A stretch of DNA of 46,032 nucleotides, from positions 1-46,032 of the forward strand of contig JAAYKP010000044.1 in NCBI GenBank assembly GCA_012522335.1, in the 5' to 3' direction. The stretch's first letter is position 1. Every line of letters begins with the position of its first letter. Below, piece after piece: positions 40,408-43,223 of this stretch. The notes beneath the pieces are model-generated. The model was not told where the DNA came from. It saw only the letters and a list, made by a program, of their open reading frames with translations, and ran no database searches. Origin of the DNA: Bacillota bacterium (GTDB lineage: Bacteria > Bacillota > Dethiobacteria > Dethiobacterales > Dethiobacteraceae). Position numbers and translations under genes: made by a program.

Positions 40408-40522
40408 TCTTTTCCACCTCTCTTCCGCCTGTCTTTTTCCCTATCAATCCTATTCGCCTGACAAGCAGAATATGTCTTTTGCTTCAAAATAATGGACACG
40501 CTAAAGAGGATAATTTTTATAA

Positions 40523-40554
40523 TTGTCGAATAACATACACAAGTGTGGTAAAAT
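40523..40554 (+). promoter_or_regulatory. Spo0A-box-like site overlapping the kinase promoter
   Basis: TTGTCGAAT (40523-40531) contains the full Spo0A core TGTCGAA and sits where the -35 should be: an extended -10 TGGTAAAAT (hexamer 40549-40554) starts 17 bases further on. Spo0A-activated sigma-A promoters often have a box at this place. The kinase ATG is at 40576. Confidence 0.5.
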
Positions 40555-40575: not shown

Positions 40576-41694
40576 ATGAAGAACAATTTTTTAATGCTCT
40601 TGAATCGTTTTTTTTCAGAGCGCAGCTTTGCTCTGCGCACAAAAGTGCTTGTCTATTCTCTTGCCCTCATCATAACCCTGGCTATAGCGCTGCTGATACG
40701 GCAGGGGCCTTTTAATGATAGTGAAACCAGACTAATTCTCTACCTTTTCCATGTTTTAATTTTTGCCAGTACCTTTGTTTGCGGTTTAGCCCCCGGCATT
40801 ATCATCGCCACCATCAGTACGATAACAGCAATCAGCTCTCTGGGTAAAAACTGGTTCCAATTAAGCCAGATGACCTTTCACGAAGCAGAAGTTTTTCCTT
40901 TTATTGCCCTCTATTATTTAGTAGCCATTACTGTTGACTGGTTCCGTGAACATATCGAAAAGCTGGAAAGGCAGCTGGCAGAAATTGAAGAACTGCACGA
41001 GAGGACCAGGCAGATGGAAAAACTTGCTTTAGCCGGGCAAATTGCCCTGGGGATTGCGCATGAAATCCGCAACCCCATTACAGTTGTGCATGGCTATCTT
41101 CAGGTGCTGGCGCAAAAACAGCCGGAACTTGAGGAAAGCTACGGCTTGATGTTAGATGAGTTAATGCGGGCCAATCAGATCATTTCTGACTTTCTCTCTT
41201 TCAGCCGACCCAGGCAGCTGCAAAAAGTGCCGCTGCAGCTTAACCAGGTGCTTGAGTCGTCCGTTTCTTTAATTGCCGGTAAAGCAGTGCGCAGCAATAT
41301 CGCAATAAAAACTGACTTGGCCTACGATTTACCCATTCTTTTACTCGACCACAGTCAGATGATGCAGGTCTTTTTAAACTTGTTTAATAACGCTATTCAG
41401 GCCATGCCCGCGGGGGGCACCCTTGCTGTCAGCACAGAATTTGCTCCGGAGCAGAATGTGGTGCGGATAAAGATCAAAGATGACGGCAGTGGTATAACGC
41501 CGGAAGTGCTGCAGCAAATCTTTGATCCTTTCTTTACCACCAAAGATCAGGGTACGGGCTTAGGTTTATCAATTACACAAACAATAGTAGCCGCCCATGG
41601 CGGTCAGATTGAAGCGGAAAGCAAAGTAAATGAGGGTACACAATTTACCATTACCCTCCCCCTCCCTGCAGCAGAGGCGGAACTTCAAGTTTAA
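40576..41694 (+). CDS. Membrane sensor histidine kinase (KinB-like), first gene of the agr locus
   Basis: The 372-residue product has four probable helices (~24-41, 53-70, 71-90, 107-123), similar to the four-helix DUF4118 region of KdpD-like kinases. A coiled-coil linker (REHIEKLERQLAEIEELHERT) is followed by HisKA with His162 in AHEIRNPITVVHGY. HATPase follows: NLFNNAIQAMPAGG, DDGSGI, FDPFFTTKDQGTGLGLS. All catalytic boxes are present. No response regulator is adjacent, as for Spo0A-pathway kinases. It starts after TTTGGAG behind the Spo0A-box-like site and is followed on the same strand by the three agr genes. Confidence 0.92.
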   Translation: MKNNFLMLLNRFFSERSFALRTKVLVYSLALIITLAIALLIRQGPFNDSETRLILYLFHVLIFASTFVCGLAPGIIIATISTITAISSLGKNWFQLSQMTFHEAEVFPFIALYYLVAITVDWFREHIEKLERQLAEIEELHERTRQMEKLALAGQIALGIAHEIRNPITVVHGYLQVLAQKQPELEESYGLMLDELMRANQIISDFLSFSRPRQLQKVPLQLNQVLESSVSLIAGKAVRSNIAIKTDLAYDLPILLLDHSQMMQVFLNLFNNAIQAMPAGGTLAVSTEFAPEQNVVRIKIKDDGSGITPEVLQQIFDPFFTTKDQGTGLGLSITQTIVAAHGGQIEAESKVNEGTQFTITLPLPAAEAELQV

Positions 41695-41804
41695 AATTAG
41701 CTTTCATGCAGCAGGCAGTGCAGTTCTGTTAACAGATTTGGCAGCAAAACTATAGTAAAAAGATTGGCAATATTTTATAATATTCATTAGAGGGGATGAT
41801 GCTG

Positions 41805-42284
41805 ATGGAATTAATGCCGCTCATTACATTATTTTTTCTGGCTTTTCCCGAAGGGATGCTGACTTCAGCCGTTGGTTTAACACTGATTAATTTCCGACCC
41901 CATTGGCAGGGAGCGGTACGCGTCGGCATAACCCATATGCTGGCAGCCTTTTTTCTGCGCAGGTTGCTGCCTCCAGGTATACATACGCTTGTAATTACCA
42001 TTGTGCTGGTAGGCGTGATCATGTACAGCTACCGACTAAGCTTTAAAAAATCATTTGCAGCGACAATTTTAGGTCTTGTGTTTCTGGTGTTAGGAGAATC
42101 CATTACTATGCCGCTGTTTACCCATGCTTTTTCCGTAACCATGCAGGACATCCTGGCAGACCCTTGGCTGCGCGTTGCTGCTTCCCTGCCAACGCAGTTG
42201 TTTTTGCTGCTGGTCCTGCTGTTAGCCTATCGCCTGCGGAAATTCCACCGGCAGCCTGCTTCTCATTGGCCTGACAGAAATTAA
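41805..42284 (+). CDS. Kinase-less membrane protein, candidate split peptide receptor
   Basis: The frame is open from an ATG at 41796, but AGAGGGG abuts it; the ATG at 41805 is better spaced and gives 159 residues. Five hydrophobic segments fill the protein. MELMPLITLFFLAFPEGMLT and LPPGIHTLVITIVLVGVIM resemble the membrane sensor region found in front of GHKL-type kinase domains in clostridial AgrC-like proteins (from memory). It ends soon after the last helix with a basic tail (RLRKFHRQ), so no kinase domain is attached. Position directly before agrB supports a receptor or accessory role; no function is proven. Confidence 0.75.
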   Translation: MELMPLITLFFLAFPEGMLTSAVGLTLINFRPHWQGAVRVGITHMLAAFFLRRLLPPGIHTLVITIVLVGVIMYSYRLSFKKSFAATILGLVFLVLGESITMPLFTHAFSVTMQDILADPWLRVAASLPTQLFLLLVLLLAYRLRKFHRQPASHWPDRN

Positions 42285-42305
42285 ATATTTTTTTCGGAGT
42301 ATAGC

Positions 42306-42908
42306 ATGAAGTGGTTAGTTGACTATCTGGACCGTGAATTAAATTTACAGCATGACCAACGCGAAACAATTGAATATGGCCTGGCTTCATTACTTTATAC
42401 AGCCCTCAGTGTCGTCAGCGCACTGCTGCTGGCCAAGCTTTTGGGGCTCTACCGGGAAACAGCGGTAATTATTTCTGTAATCATGCTCTATCGCAAAGTC
42501 AGCGGTGGAGCGCATATTTCCACACCTCACGGCTGTCTGATTACCGGTACGGCCGCCAGCCTGCTTTTCGCATACCTGACAAAGTTATGGGCCCCCCTTT
42601 TTGCTGCATCGGCTGCAGCCAGGATCCTGCCGGCCTTTCTGGCCCTTTATCCTGCATACCTGTATGTCCCGGCAGCTGTGCCGCAGAAACCTATCACCTC
42701 ACTGCGGCAAAGAAGGCTGCTGCGCCGGCTATCCTTTGCCCTGCTCCTCTGCTGGGGTCTGCTGGGCATAATCGTTAAGCGGCTGCCTGCAGTTTGGTCA
42801 TACTATTATTTTGCCGGCAGTCTGGGACTGCTCTGGCAGTCATTTCTTTTAACACCGGCCGGTTATCGCTTGCTGGCATTTCTCTCCCCACTTTTCAACA
42901 AAAAATAA
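42306..42908 (+). CDS. agrB: AgrB, peptide-processing membrane protease
   Basis: AgrB cuts the AgrD precursor and forms its thiolactone ring. The 200-residue product has four to six helices and the catalytic pair in YRKVSGGAHISTPHGC: His70 and Cys77, with the same spacing as His77 and Cys84 in S. aureus. A YxxAxLLxxxxGLYRE-like segment precedes it, as in the family. Start after CGGAG, 22 bases behind the membrane-protein gene, so the two are probably co-transcribed. The substrate is encoded 112 bases downstream. Confidence 0.93.
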   Translation: MKWLVDYLDRELNLQHDQRETIEYGLASLLYTALSVVSALLLAKLLGLYRETAVIISVIMLYRKVSGGAHISTPHGCLITGTAASLLFAYLTKLWAPLFAASAAARILPAFLALYPAYLYVPAAVPQKPITSLRQRRLLRRLSFALLLCWGLLGIIVKRLPAVWSYYYFAGSLGLLWQSFLLTPAGYRLLAFLSPLFNKK

Positions 42909-42944
42909 GCCTTCCTATTAATAAATATGTTATGTTTTGTAATG

Positions 42945-42953
42945 TTTCGACAA
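42945..42953. promoter_or_regulatory. Spo0A-box-like site upstream of agrD
   Basis: TTTCGACAA is the reverse complement of TTGTCGAAA and contains the full Spo0A core TGTCGAA. It is 67 bases before the agrD start, inside the agrB-agrD gap, next to TTGGCA (42954-42959), a possible -35. The -10 is unclear. Confidence 0.4.
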
Positions 42954-43019
42954 TTGGCAGGATATTTAGAAAATTTGCAGTATTCCTTCTATTAAATCAT
43001 TAGAAGGAGGCTTAGACTA

Positions 43020-43145
43020 ATGAAGAAAAGAATTCTCTCTCTGCTCGCCGGCCTGCTGACCCTGATTGCCCTCGGCAGCGCAGCTTCAGCCTGCTGGGCA
43101 ATTCTTTATCAACCTAAACTTCCTGAAGCACTGAAAAGAAGGTGA
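43020..43145 (+). CDS. agrD: AgrD-like cyclic-lactone autoinducer precursor, 41 residues
   Basis: The ORF begins with an ATG at 43020, preceded by AGAAGGAGG about 9 bases away, and ends with TGA at 43143-43145. MKKRILSLLAGLLTLIALGS is the amphipathic leader. It is followed by ACWAILYQPKLPEALKRR, with Cys25 as the ring residue and the conserved charged tail (QPK.PE) of the clostridial cyclic-lactone autoinducers. The mature signal probably contains CWAIL or CWAILY closed through the Cys; the exact ends cannot be read from sequence. Its place behind agrB and its own strong ribosome site confirm it. It is too short for most ORF callers. Confidence 0.92.
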   Translation: MKKRILSLLAGLLTLIALGSAASACWAILYQPKLPEALKRR

Positions 43146-43180: not shown

Positions 43181-43223
43181 GCAGCAAAAAAAGCTGGGCG
43201 CTCTGACCAGCTTTTTTTGCTGC
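43181..43223. terminator. Strong bidirectional terminator between agrD and mtaB
   Basis: GCAGCAAAAAAAGCTGG (43181-43197) and CCAGCTTTTTTTGCTGC (43207-43223) form a perfect 17-bp stem with a nine-base loop. A/T-tracts on both arms make it work in both directions. Confidence 0.9.

Follow-up and report, generated by a model that had tools for sequence, protein, structure and literature searches.

The window, i.e., the whole stretch of 46,032 nucleotides analysed here (contig JAAYKP010000044.1 of assembly GCA_012522335.1), belongs to a Dethiobacter-like spore-former of the Bacillota and probably carries an agr-type quorum-sensing operon with its receptor split over two genes. The list of open reading frames (ORFs) of the window contains four genes in a row at 40576-43145, all on the forward strand, coding for a membrane histidine kinase (KIN), a five-helix membrane protein (MP), the peptidase/transporter AgrB and the peptide precursor AgrD. 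MP and KIN would together make up the receptor, and MP would be the part that senses the peptide. A preliminary description of this locus had guessed the split from gene order. The comparison over the phylum has put the guess on a firmer footing, since MP corresponds to the N-terminal half of fused AgrC-like kinases and the break falls at a domain boundary. Being fused to AgrC-like kinases, separated from them at that boundary and swapped among different partners, MP can be regarded as a detachable sensor module of the agr receptor. Beyond what that description had noticed, the module proved to be widespread, and other copies of it feed GHKL/LytTR systems or GGDEF/HD-GYP enzymes.

The MP domain fused, split and exchanged among partners

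A profile of the MP family (A1) was run over 98 genomes of the class and 399 sampled genomes of the phylum, and the family was found in 29 and 154 of them, respectively. We read 97 MP loci and then annotated them with profiles, which gave four main arrangements. In the first one, ten proteins of 441-473 aa have the MP domain fused to two transmembrane (TM) helices, SPOB_a and GHKL, and a LytTR regulator and/or the agrB and agrD genes (AgrBD) adjoin in most cases. The second is a split AgrC, found in about 22 loci, where MP is followed at -65 to +50 bp by a kinase of 278-319 aa (two TM, SPOB_a, GHKL) and then by AgrB, AgrD and often LytTR. In the third, MP-AgrBD is accompanied by a HisKA kinase that can be of the 6TM-PAS type, of the extracellular-domain-PAS type, a hybrid or KIN itself. 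In the fourth, a membrane GGDEF + HD-GYP protein, mostly of 551-588 aa, is located 10-130 bp past agrD.

What MP is can be read from a comparison of the first two arrangements. By hhalign, residues 7-161 of the fused proteins are covered by MP (1e-35) and their remaining part by the 22 GHKL kinases that stand alone (3e-83), so that the split falls exactly at the boundary between MP and TM6. The AlphaFold model of one fused protein has five helices (6-27, 34-53, 58-77, 81-110 and 121-144) that match those of MP in number and length, followed by a low-confidence linker, TM6 and a long TM7-signalling helix. The NCBIfam AgrC model is collinear with the fused protein over residues 62-417, with an E of 3e-16 that is below the cut-off and derives mostly from the kinase part. 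Judging from these alignments, the fused proteins resemble AgrC, and their sensor half is either distinct from that of Staphylococcus aureus AgrC or strongly diverged from it.

The partners of MP are not distributed at random. Partner type tracks the MP tree, with 33 changes against a mean of 72 after shuffling (none of 200 shuffles was as low), and does so also within genomes that have two types (G022, G474, G181, G143 and G245). Kinases adjoin MP far above the background, which is 2 of 213 other genes. AgrB and MP co-occur in 104 of about 300 genomes, where AgrB is found in 119 and MP in 115 (kinship uncorrected). The chemistry of the peptide ring varies with the receptor class, the ring residue being Ser in 20 of the 23 loci with a GHKL or fused kinase and Cys in 40 of the 46 with HisKA kinases (HK), GGDEF proteins or KIN, counts that are likewise uncorrected for kinship; the same holds between the loci of single genomes (G474, G143 and G181). 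In addition, the HisKA 6TM kinases and the GGDEF/HD-GYP enzymes have a TM domain in common (hhalign 9e-32), which suggests a single domain for docking MP in both classes.

Cassettes of MP-AgrBD next to a GGDEF/HD-GYP enzyme were found at L031:1306-3009 and in about 25 further loci (L032, L037, L038, L039, L098, L107, L111, L130, L131, L141, L149, L150, L153, L160, L162, L163, L165, L171, L177 and others). They likely represent a direct link from agr to cyclic-di-GMP. In L166, L168 and L169 MP adjoins a larger GGDEF-HD-GYP protein (758-766 aa), with AgrBD divergent or absent, and an extra C-terminal MEDS sensory domain was present in both of the two of these proteins that were scanned. In three loci (L144, L131 and L025) MP is repeated in tandem, up to four or five times, with some copies broken into short frames, and each of these loci has a single AgrBD and a single effector. 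In L096 and L173, both of genus g61, other genes between MP and AgrB, possibly insertions, break up the kinase half of the receptor.

Taking these arrangements together, we lean towards the view that in this phylum MP serves as a general and portable receptor for cyclic (thio)lactone peptides and would plug into output enzymes as different as AgrC-like GHKL/LytTR pairs, sporulation-type HisKA kinases, hybrid kinases and membrane GGDEF/HD-GYP enzymes.

The operon of the window and its conservation in the family

KIN (40576..41694, + strand, 372 aa) has a TM region at about residues 18-128, with a weak DUF4118-like match (E 0.03), followed by HisKA (Pfam, 5e-13) and HATPase_c (2e-28). It has the KinB-type layout, i.e., multiple TM helices, HisKA-HATPase and no response regulator gene adjoining. 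Its TM domain is essentially restricted to the family of genomes to which the window belongs. MP (41805..42284, + strand, 159 aa) has no family match and no kinase domain in Pfam or NCBIfam, and AlphaFold (AF2) predicts five long helices and a short one with pLDDT 94 and pTM 0.87. The ORF is open from the ATG at 41796, and the ATG at 41805 is the most likely start because GAGGGG at 41790-41795 is spaced normally from it and the homologues start there. The conserved residues are P15, E16, R52, G58, H60, E98 and P129. Against the A1 profile, in which it is included, the MP of the window scores 7.7e-54. A second AgrB was considered for MP and ruled out (hhalign prob 1%).

AgrB (42306..42908, + strand; Pfam AgrB 1.1e-31) has the catalytic pair H70/C77, invariant across 16 relatives. 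When the AgrB of the window was used alone as query the contig search returned no relatives, and an eight-sequence alignment was needed; with it, the six relatives that carry names were metagenome-assembled genomes labelled Dethiobacter sp., Clostridiales or Bacillota. AgrD (43020..43145, + strand) matches TIGR04223 at 6.9e-14, with a score of 51.6 and a cut-off of 19, and reads MKKRILSLLAGLLTLIALGSAASA-C25WAIL29-Y30QPKLP35EALKRR. The mature ring would be Cys25-Trp-Ala-Ile-Leu29 (codons 43092-43106, + strand). A five-residue thiolactone is predicted because the spacing of ring and tail equals that of the AgrD of Clostridium thermocellum, with ring residue 25, F29, Y30 and P35; mass spectrometry has verified the mature product of that precursor as a lactone pentapeptide (PMC5322536). 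Among the eight cassettes of the family the ring is hypervariable and the flanks nearly invariant, e.g., CYVIW in L029 and CWAIL in the window.

The preliminary description had recognised AgrB, a clear AgrD with Cys25 and its tail, a five-helix protein devoid of a kinase domain before agrB and a complete KinB-type membrane kinase upstream, and these identifications stand; in the case of MP the start is most likely at 41805 instead of 41796. It had also reported no AgrC or AgrA, which now holds for the whole host genome (a 2.0 Mb draft of 169 contigs, 99.3% complete). This genome has one AgrB copy and, by profile search, no LytTR protein (5 of 14 control genomes do match), and we found in it no single-chain AgrC with a SPOB_a/GHKL kinase. 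Its single SPOB_a protein is encoded between rpmA and obg (rpmA-x-obg) and for this reason is taken as Spo0B. An AgrC/AgrA pair elsewhere, or an MP that was AgrB-like or an unrelated gene in relatives, had been named as grounds for abandoning the split receptor; the genome contains no such pair, and the MP of relatives does not resemble AgrB and is not an unrelated gene either.

Conservation of the four-gene order had been proposed as a check, and it was found in all MP-bearing genomes of the family. MP is present in 8 of 20 genomes and, by profile searches, AgrB in exactly those same eight. In 8/8 the order KIN-MP-AgrB-AgrD and the strand are kept at one syntenic place, far above chance, flanked by a P-loop protein and a conserved hypothetical on one side and by MtaB-RsmE-PrmA on the other (the MtaB side is missing in L023, at a contig edge). 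Eight of the 20 genomes have neither KIN nor MP-AgrBD and four have a lone KIN orthologue. From this joint presence and absence, MP-AgrB-AgrD behaves as one module that in the family is always beside KIN. The distance between kin and mp is -1 bp in L025, 5 bp in L029 and 110 bp in the window.

A few further features of the locus and of possible relatives in phages can be mentioned. An inverted repeat read from the sequence, AAAAAAAGCTGG...CCAGCTTTTTTT (43186..43218, no strand assigned), is likely a bidirectional terminator separating agrD from the MtaB-like gene that converges on it, and the Rfam scan of the locus gave no RNA family. A tblastn search for MP in phage and plasmid records found nothing. 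Two uncharacterised proteins of 158-165 aa in BFVD, A0A8S5PKY4 (Siphoviridae sp. ctOSJ35) and A0A8S5S981 (Phage sp. ctGns7), have predicted folds like that of MP (TM-score ~0.6, prob 0.97-1.0, E above 0.05), and going by these models they are possible phage-borne receptor modules. Another record, OR849984.1, is listed as a Staphylococcus phage and carries a partial staphylococcal agr locus (agrB, an agr-II type agrD and the start of agrC); it is probably bacterial DNA mislabelled as phage.

Alternative explanations and the proposed signal path

Several observations weigh against a receptor made of MP and KIN. The predicted fold of MP has no match in the PDB, and the MP profile compared with the TM domain of S. 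aureus agr-II AgrC (L235; one sequence, a weak test) gave an hhalign prob of 0.6%, so that ligand binding cannot be carried over from a solved receptor. The TM domain of KIN showed no significant similarity to the 6TM domain of the HK and GGDEF/HD-GYP effectors (hhalign prob 15%, 18 columns); being unlike the TM domains of other MP partners, its contact with MP is not transferable by homology. MP and KIN distances are correlated over the eight loci (Mantel), as is everything else compared there, and shared descent explains the correlation; a partial test gave an r of 0.32 with p 0.05. In a few complete loci no effector adjoins MP-AgrBD. Finally, four genomes (G003, G004, G013 and G017; L201-L204) keep the KIN orthologue at the same locus without MP or AgrB, and MP is therefore not needed for all KIN functions; two of these four loci reach a contig edge immediately after KIN.

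These lone kinases, together with the fact that KIN has a TM domain of its own and that two to five MP copies per effector are found at L025, L131 and L144, would fit a situation in which KIN itself binds the peptide and MP, as a modulator, decoy or self-immunity factor, tunes or blocks KIN. We regard this as unlikely, as MP is the sensor half of the fused kinases, and the TM domain of lone KINs, which occur without AgrD, must have a different signal or none. Besides, HATPase identity between cassette and lone KINs is 49%, the same as among cassette KINs, and identity over the TM region is 36% versus 44% (pairs non-independent). Lower TM conservation in the absence of MP is what would be expected if MP constrains this domain, and is only supportive. 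The lone KINs of G003, G004, G013 and G017 are natural controls for what KIN senses by itself.

Even less probable is that MP assists AgrB in the maturation, export or proteolysis of the peptide and is no receptor at all. MP does mostly adjoin agrB, often with an overlap of a few bases, and in the family MP, AgrB and AgrD are present or absent jointly. Yet the MP domain is fused to kinases and not to AgrB, 15 of the 119 genomes with AgrB lack any MP domain, and in L101 and L175 the order is B-D-MP-HK. MP-effector pairs also exist with no AgrBD in the unit (L120, L133, L148, L154, L166, L168, L169 and the second copy of L094), which is evidence against a role of MP in peptide production. We give a similarly small chance to MP-AgrBD being a real signalling unit with KIN a mere neighbour and the true effector elsewhere in the genome. 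Loci with only KIN at the same place would agree with it, and so would the 110 bp gap of the window and its promoter-like match at 41729. On the other hand, order and strand are kept in 8/8 cases, in several of them (such as L025 and L029, above) KIN overlaps MP or lies right against it, MP-AgrBD never occurs without KIN in the family, the host genome has no GHKL/LytTR partner and elsewhere MP normally adjoins its effector.

With the receptor divided between MP and KIN, the path of the signal can be proposed as follows. AgrB would cut AgrD and export it as the five-residue thiolactone with the predicted CWAIL ring. MP, which corresponds to the sensor half at the N-terminus of AgrC-like kinases, would sense this ring and switch the activity of KIN by helix-helix contact in the membrane. 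KIN, which is KinB-like and has its own small TM domain, would most likely pass phosphate to Spo0F and, via Spo0B, to Spo0A, so that cell density would tune the entry into sporulation. What the sequences show is the identity of the genes, the conserved cassette, the joining and splitting of MP and AgrC-like kinases, the phosphorelay genes and the lack of AgrA-type regulators; peptide binding by MP, its contact with KIN, the direction of the effect and the output to Spo0F are what we infer.

Output to Spo0A is plausible because an orphan KinB-like kinase coexists with the genes for Spo0F, Spo0B and Spo0A and with sigma-H/0A-like motifs. The host Spo0A gene (TIGR02875, 2.5e-119) is located after a SpoIVB-like gene. 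A single-domain regulator of 123 aa, 43% identical to Spo0F (the query served purely as a probe), is found at pyrG-x-fba, the classical place of spo0F. The motifs are consensus matches. Before kin there is a sigma-H-like promoter, AGAGGATAA-N11-GTCGAATAA (40505..40533, + strand), with a 0A-box-like TTGTCGAA overlapping its -10 (40523-40530); the sigma-H-like match is kept in the window, L023, L025, L026 and L027. A second 0A-box-like TTGTCGAA lies between agrB and agrD (42946..42953, - strand). Its core in reverse, TGTCGAA, is at the same place in 7/8 cassettes, with 5 observed versus 0.08 expected in the six that were scored against shuffles. Before agrD a sigma-H-like -35 region (GCAGGATAT; 42957..42980, + strand) is followed by a -10 that is poor in the window and matches the consensus in five relatives, and AGGAWWW...GAAT comes after TGTCGAA in 5/8 loci (0.08 expected). 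Over the wider set, TGTCGAA was found upstream of MP in 11 of 44 HK/GGDEF cassettes versus 1 of 33 GHKL/fused ones. These motifs fit an early-sporulation timing and, as consensus matches, are no proof of binding.

Relation to known systems and significance

Compared with the staphylococcal agrBDCA system, the AgrB and AgrD of the window are true members of their families, and in the fused relatives of MP the kinase is AgrC-like and has LytTR regulators next to it. The differences are that the window has no AgrC or AgrA gene, that sensor and kinase are on separate genes, that the kinase is HisKA/KinB-like instead of GHKL and that MP has no detectable similarity to the TM domain of S. aureus AgrC (one sequence compared). 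In the Rap-Phr systems of Bacillus the gene for a secreted peptide likewise has a sigma-H-type promoter of its own and tunes the Spo0 phosphorelay; these systems differ in using linear imported peptides and cytoplasmic Rap phosphatases, with no AgrB and no membrane receptor. KIN shares with KinB of Bacillus subtilis, whose activation is described as little known, the layout of several TM helices, HisKA and HATPase with no PAS (PMC11210211), has like it no regulator gene, and has the Spo0F, Spo0B and Spo0A genes of the B. subtilis phosphorelay in the same genome. Unlike KinB, it is encoded alongside a peptide module and a receptor-like subunit; TM homology to KinB is not claimed. The agrBD genes of Clostridioides difficile (agr1), Clostridium perfringens and Clostridium autoethanogenum resemble those of the window in having no complete AgrC/AgrA pair adjoining. 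AgrD1 of C. difficile promotes sporulation by an unknown route (PMC11210211), and in C. perfringens the agr operon includes two upstream "hypothetical" genes (PMC2706048) and VirS has been proposed as the receptor (PMC7492741). The descriptions of these three systems, which are all that was compared, mention no subunit of the MP type.

Agr signalling as such is known. In the open-access PMC literature (bioRxiv not included) we found nothing that describes a split AgrC, the MP family or AgrBD beside HD-GYP enzymes, which is no proof of novelty; the receptor module in its detached form, the unannotated family behind it and the swap between kinases and cyclic-di-GMP enzymes were thus not found described. 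Many AgrB/AgrD pairs of anaerobic spore-formers have no recognised receptor, and MP is a candidate for a large share of them, so that this family may explain many of the "receptor-less" agr systems, with the neighbours of MP suggesting which enzyme each agr peptide controls. For the lineage of the window, the operon offers a concrete candidate for the signal of a KinB-like sporulation kinase. If the split receptor is true, agr would combine a signal and a receptor module with outputs that can be exchanged, among them, in relatives, the enzymes of cyclic-di-GMP turnover, instead of being a fixed four-gene circuit. If MP is indeed portable over the phylum, agr peptides would directly control cyclic-di-GMP in many bacteria.

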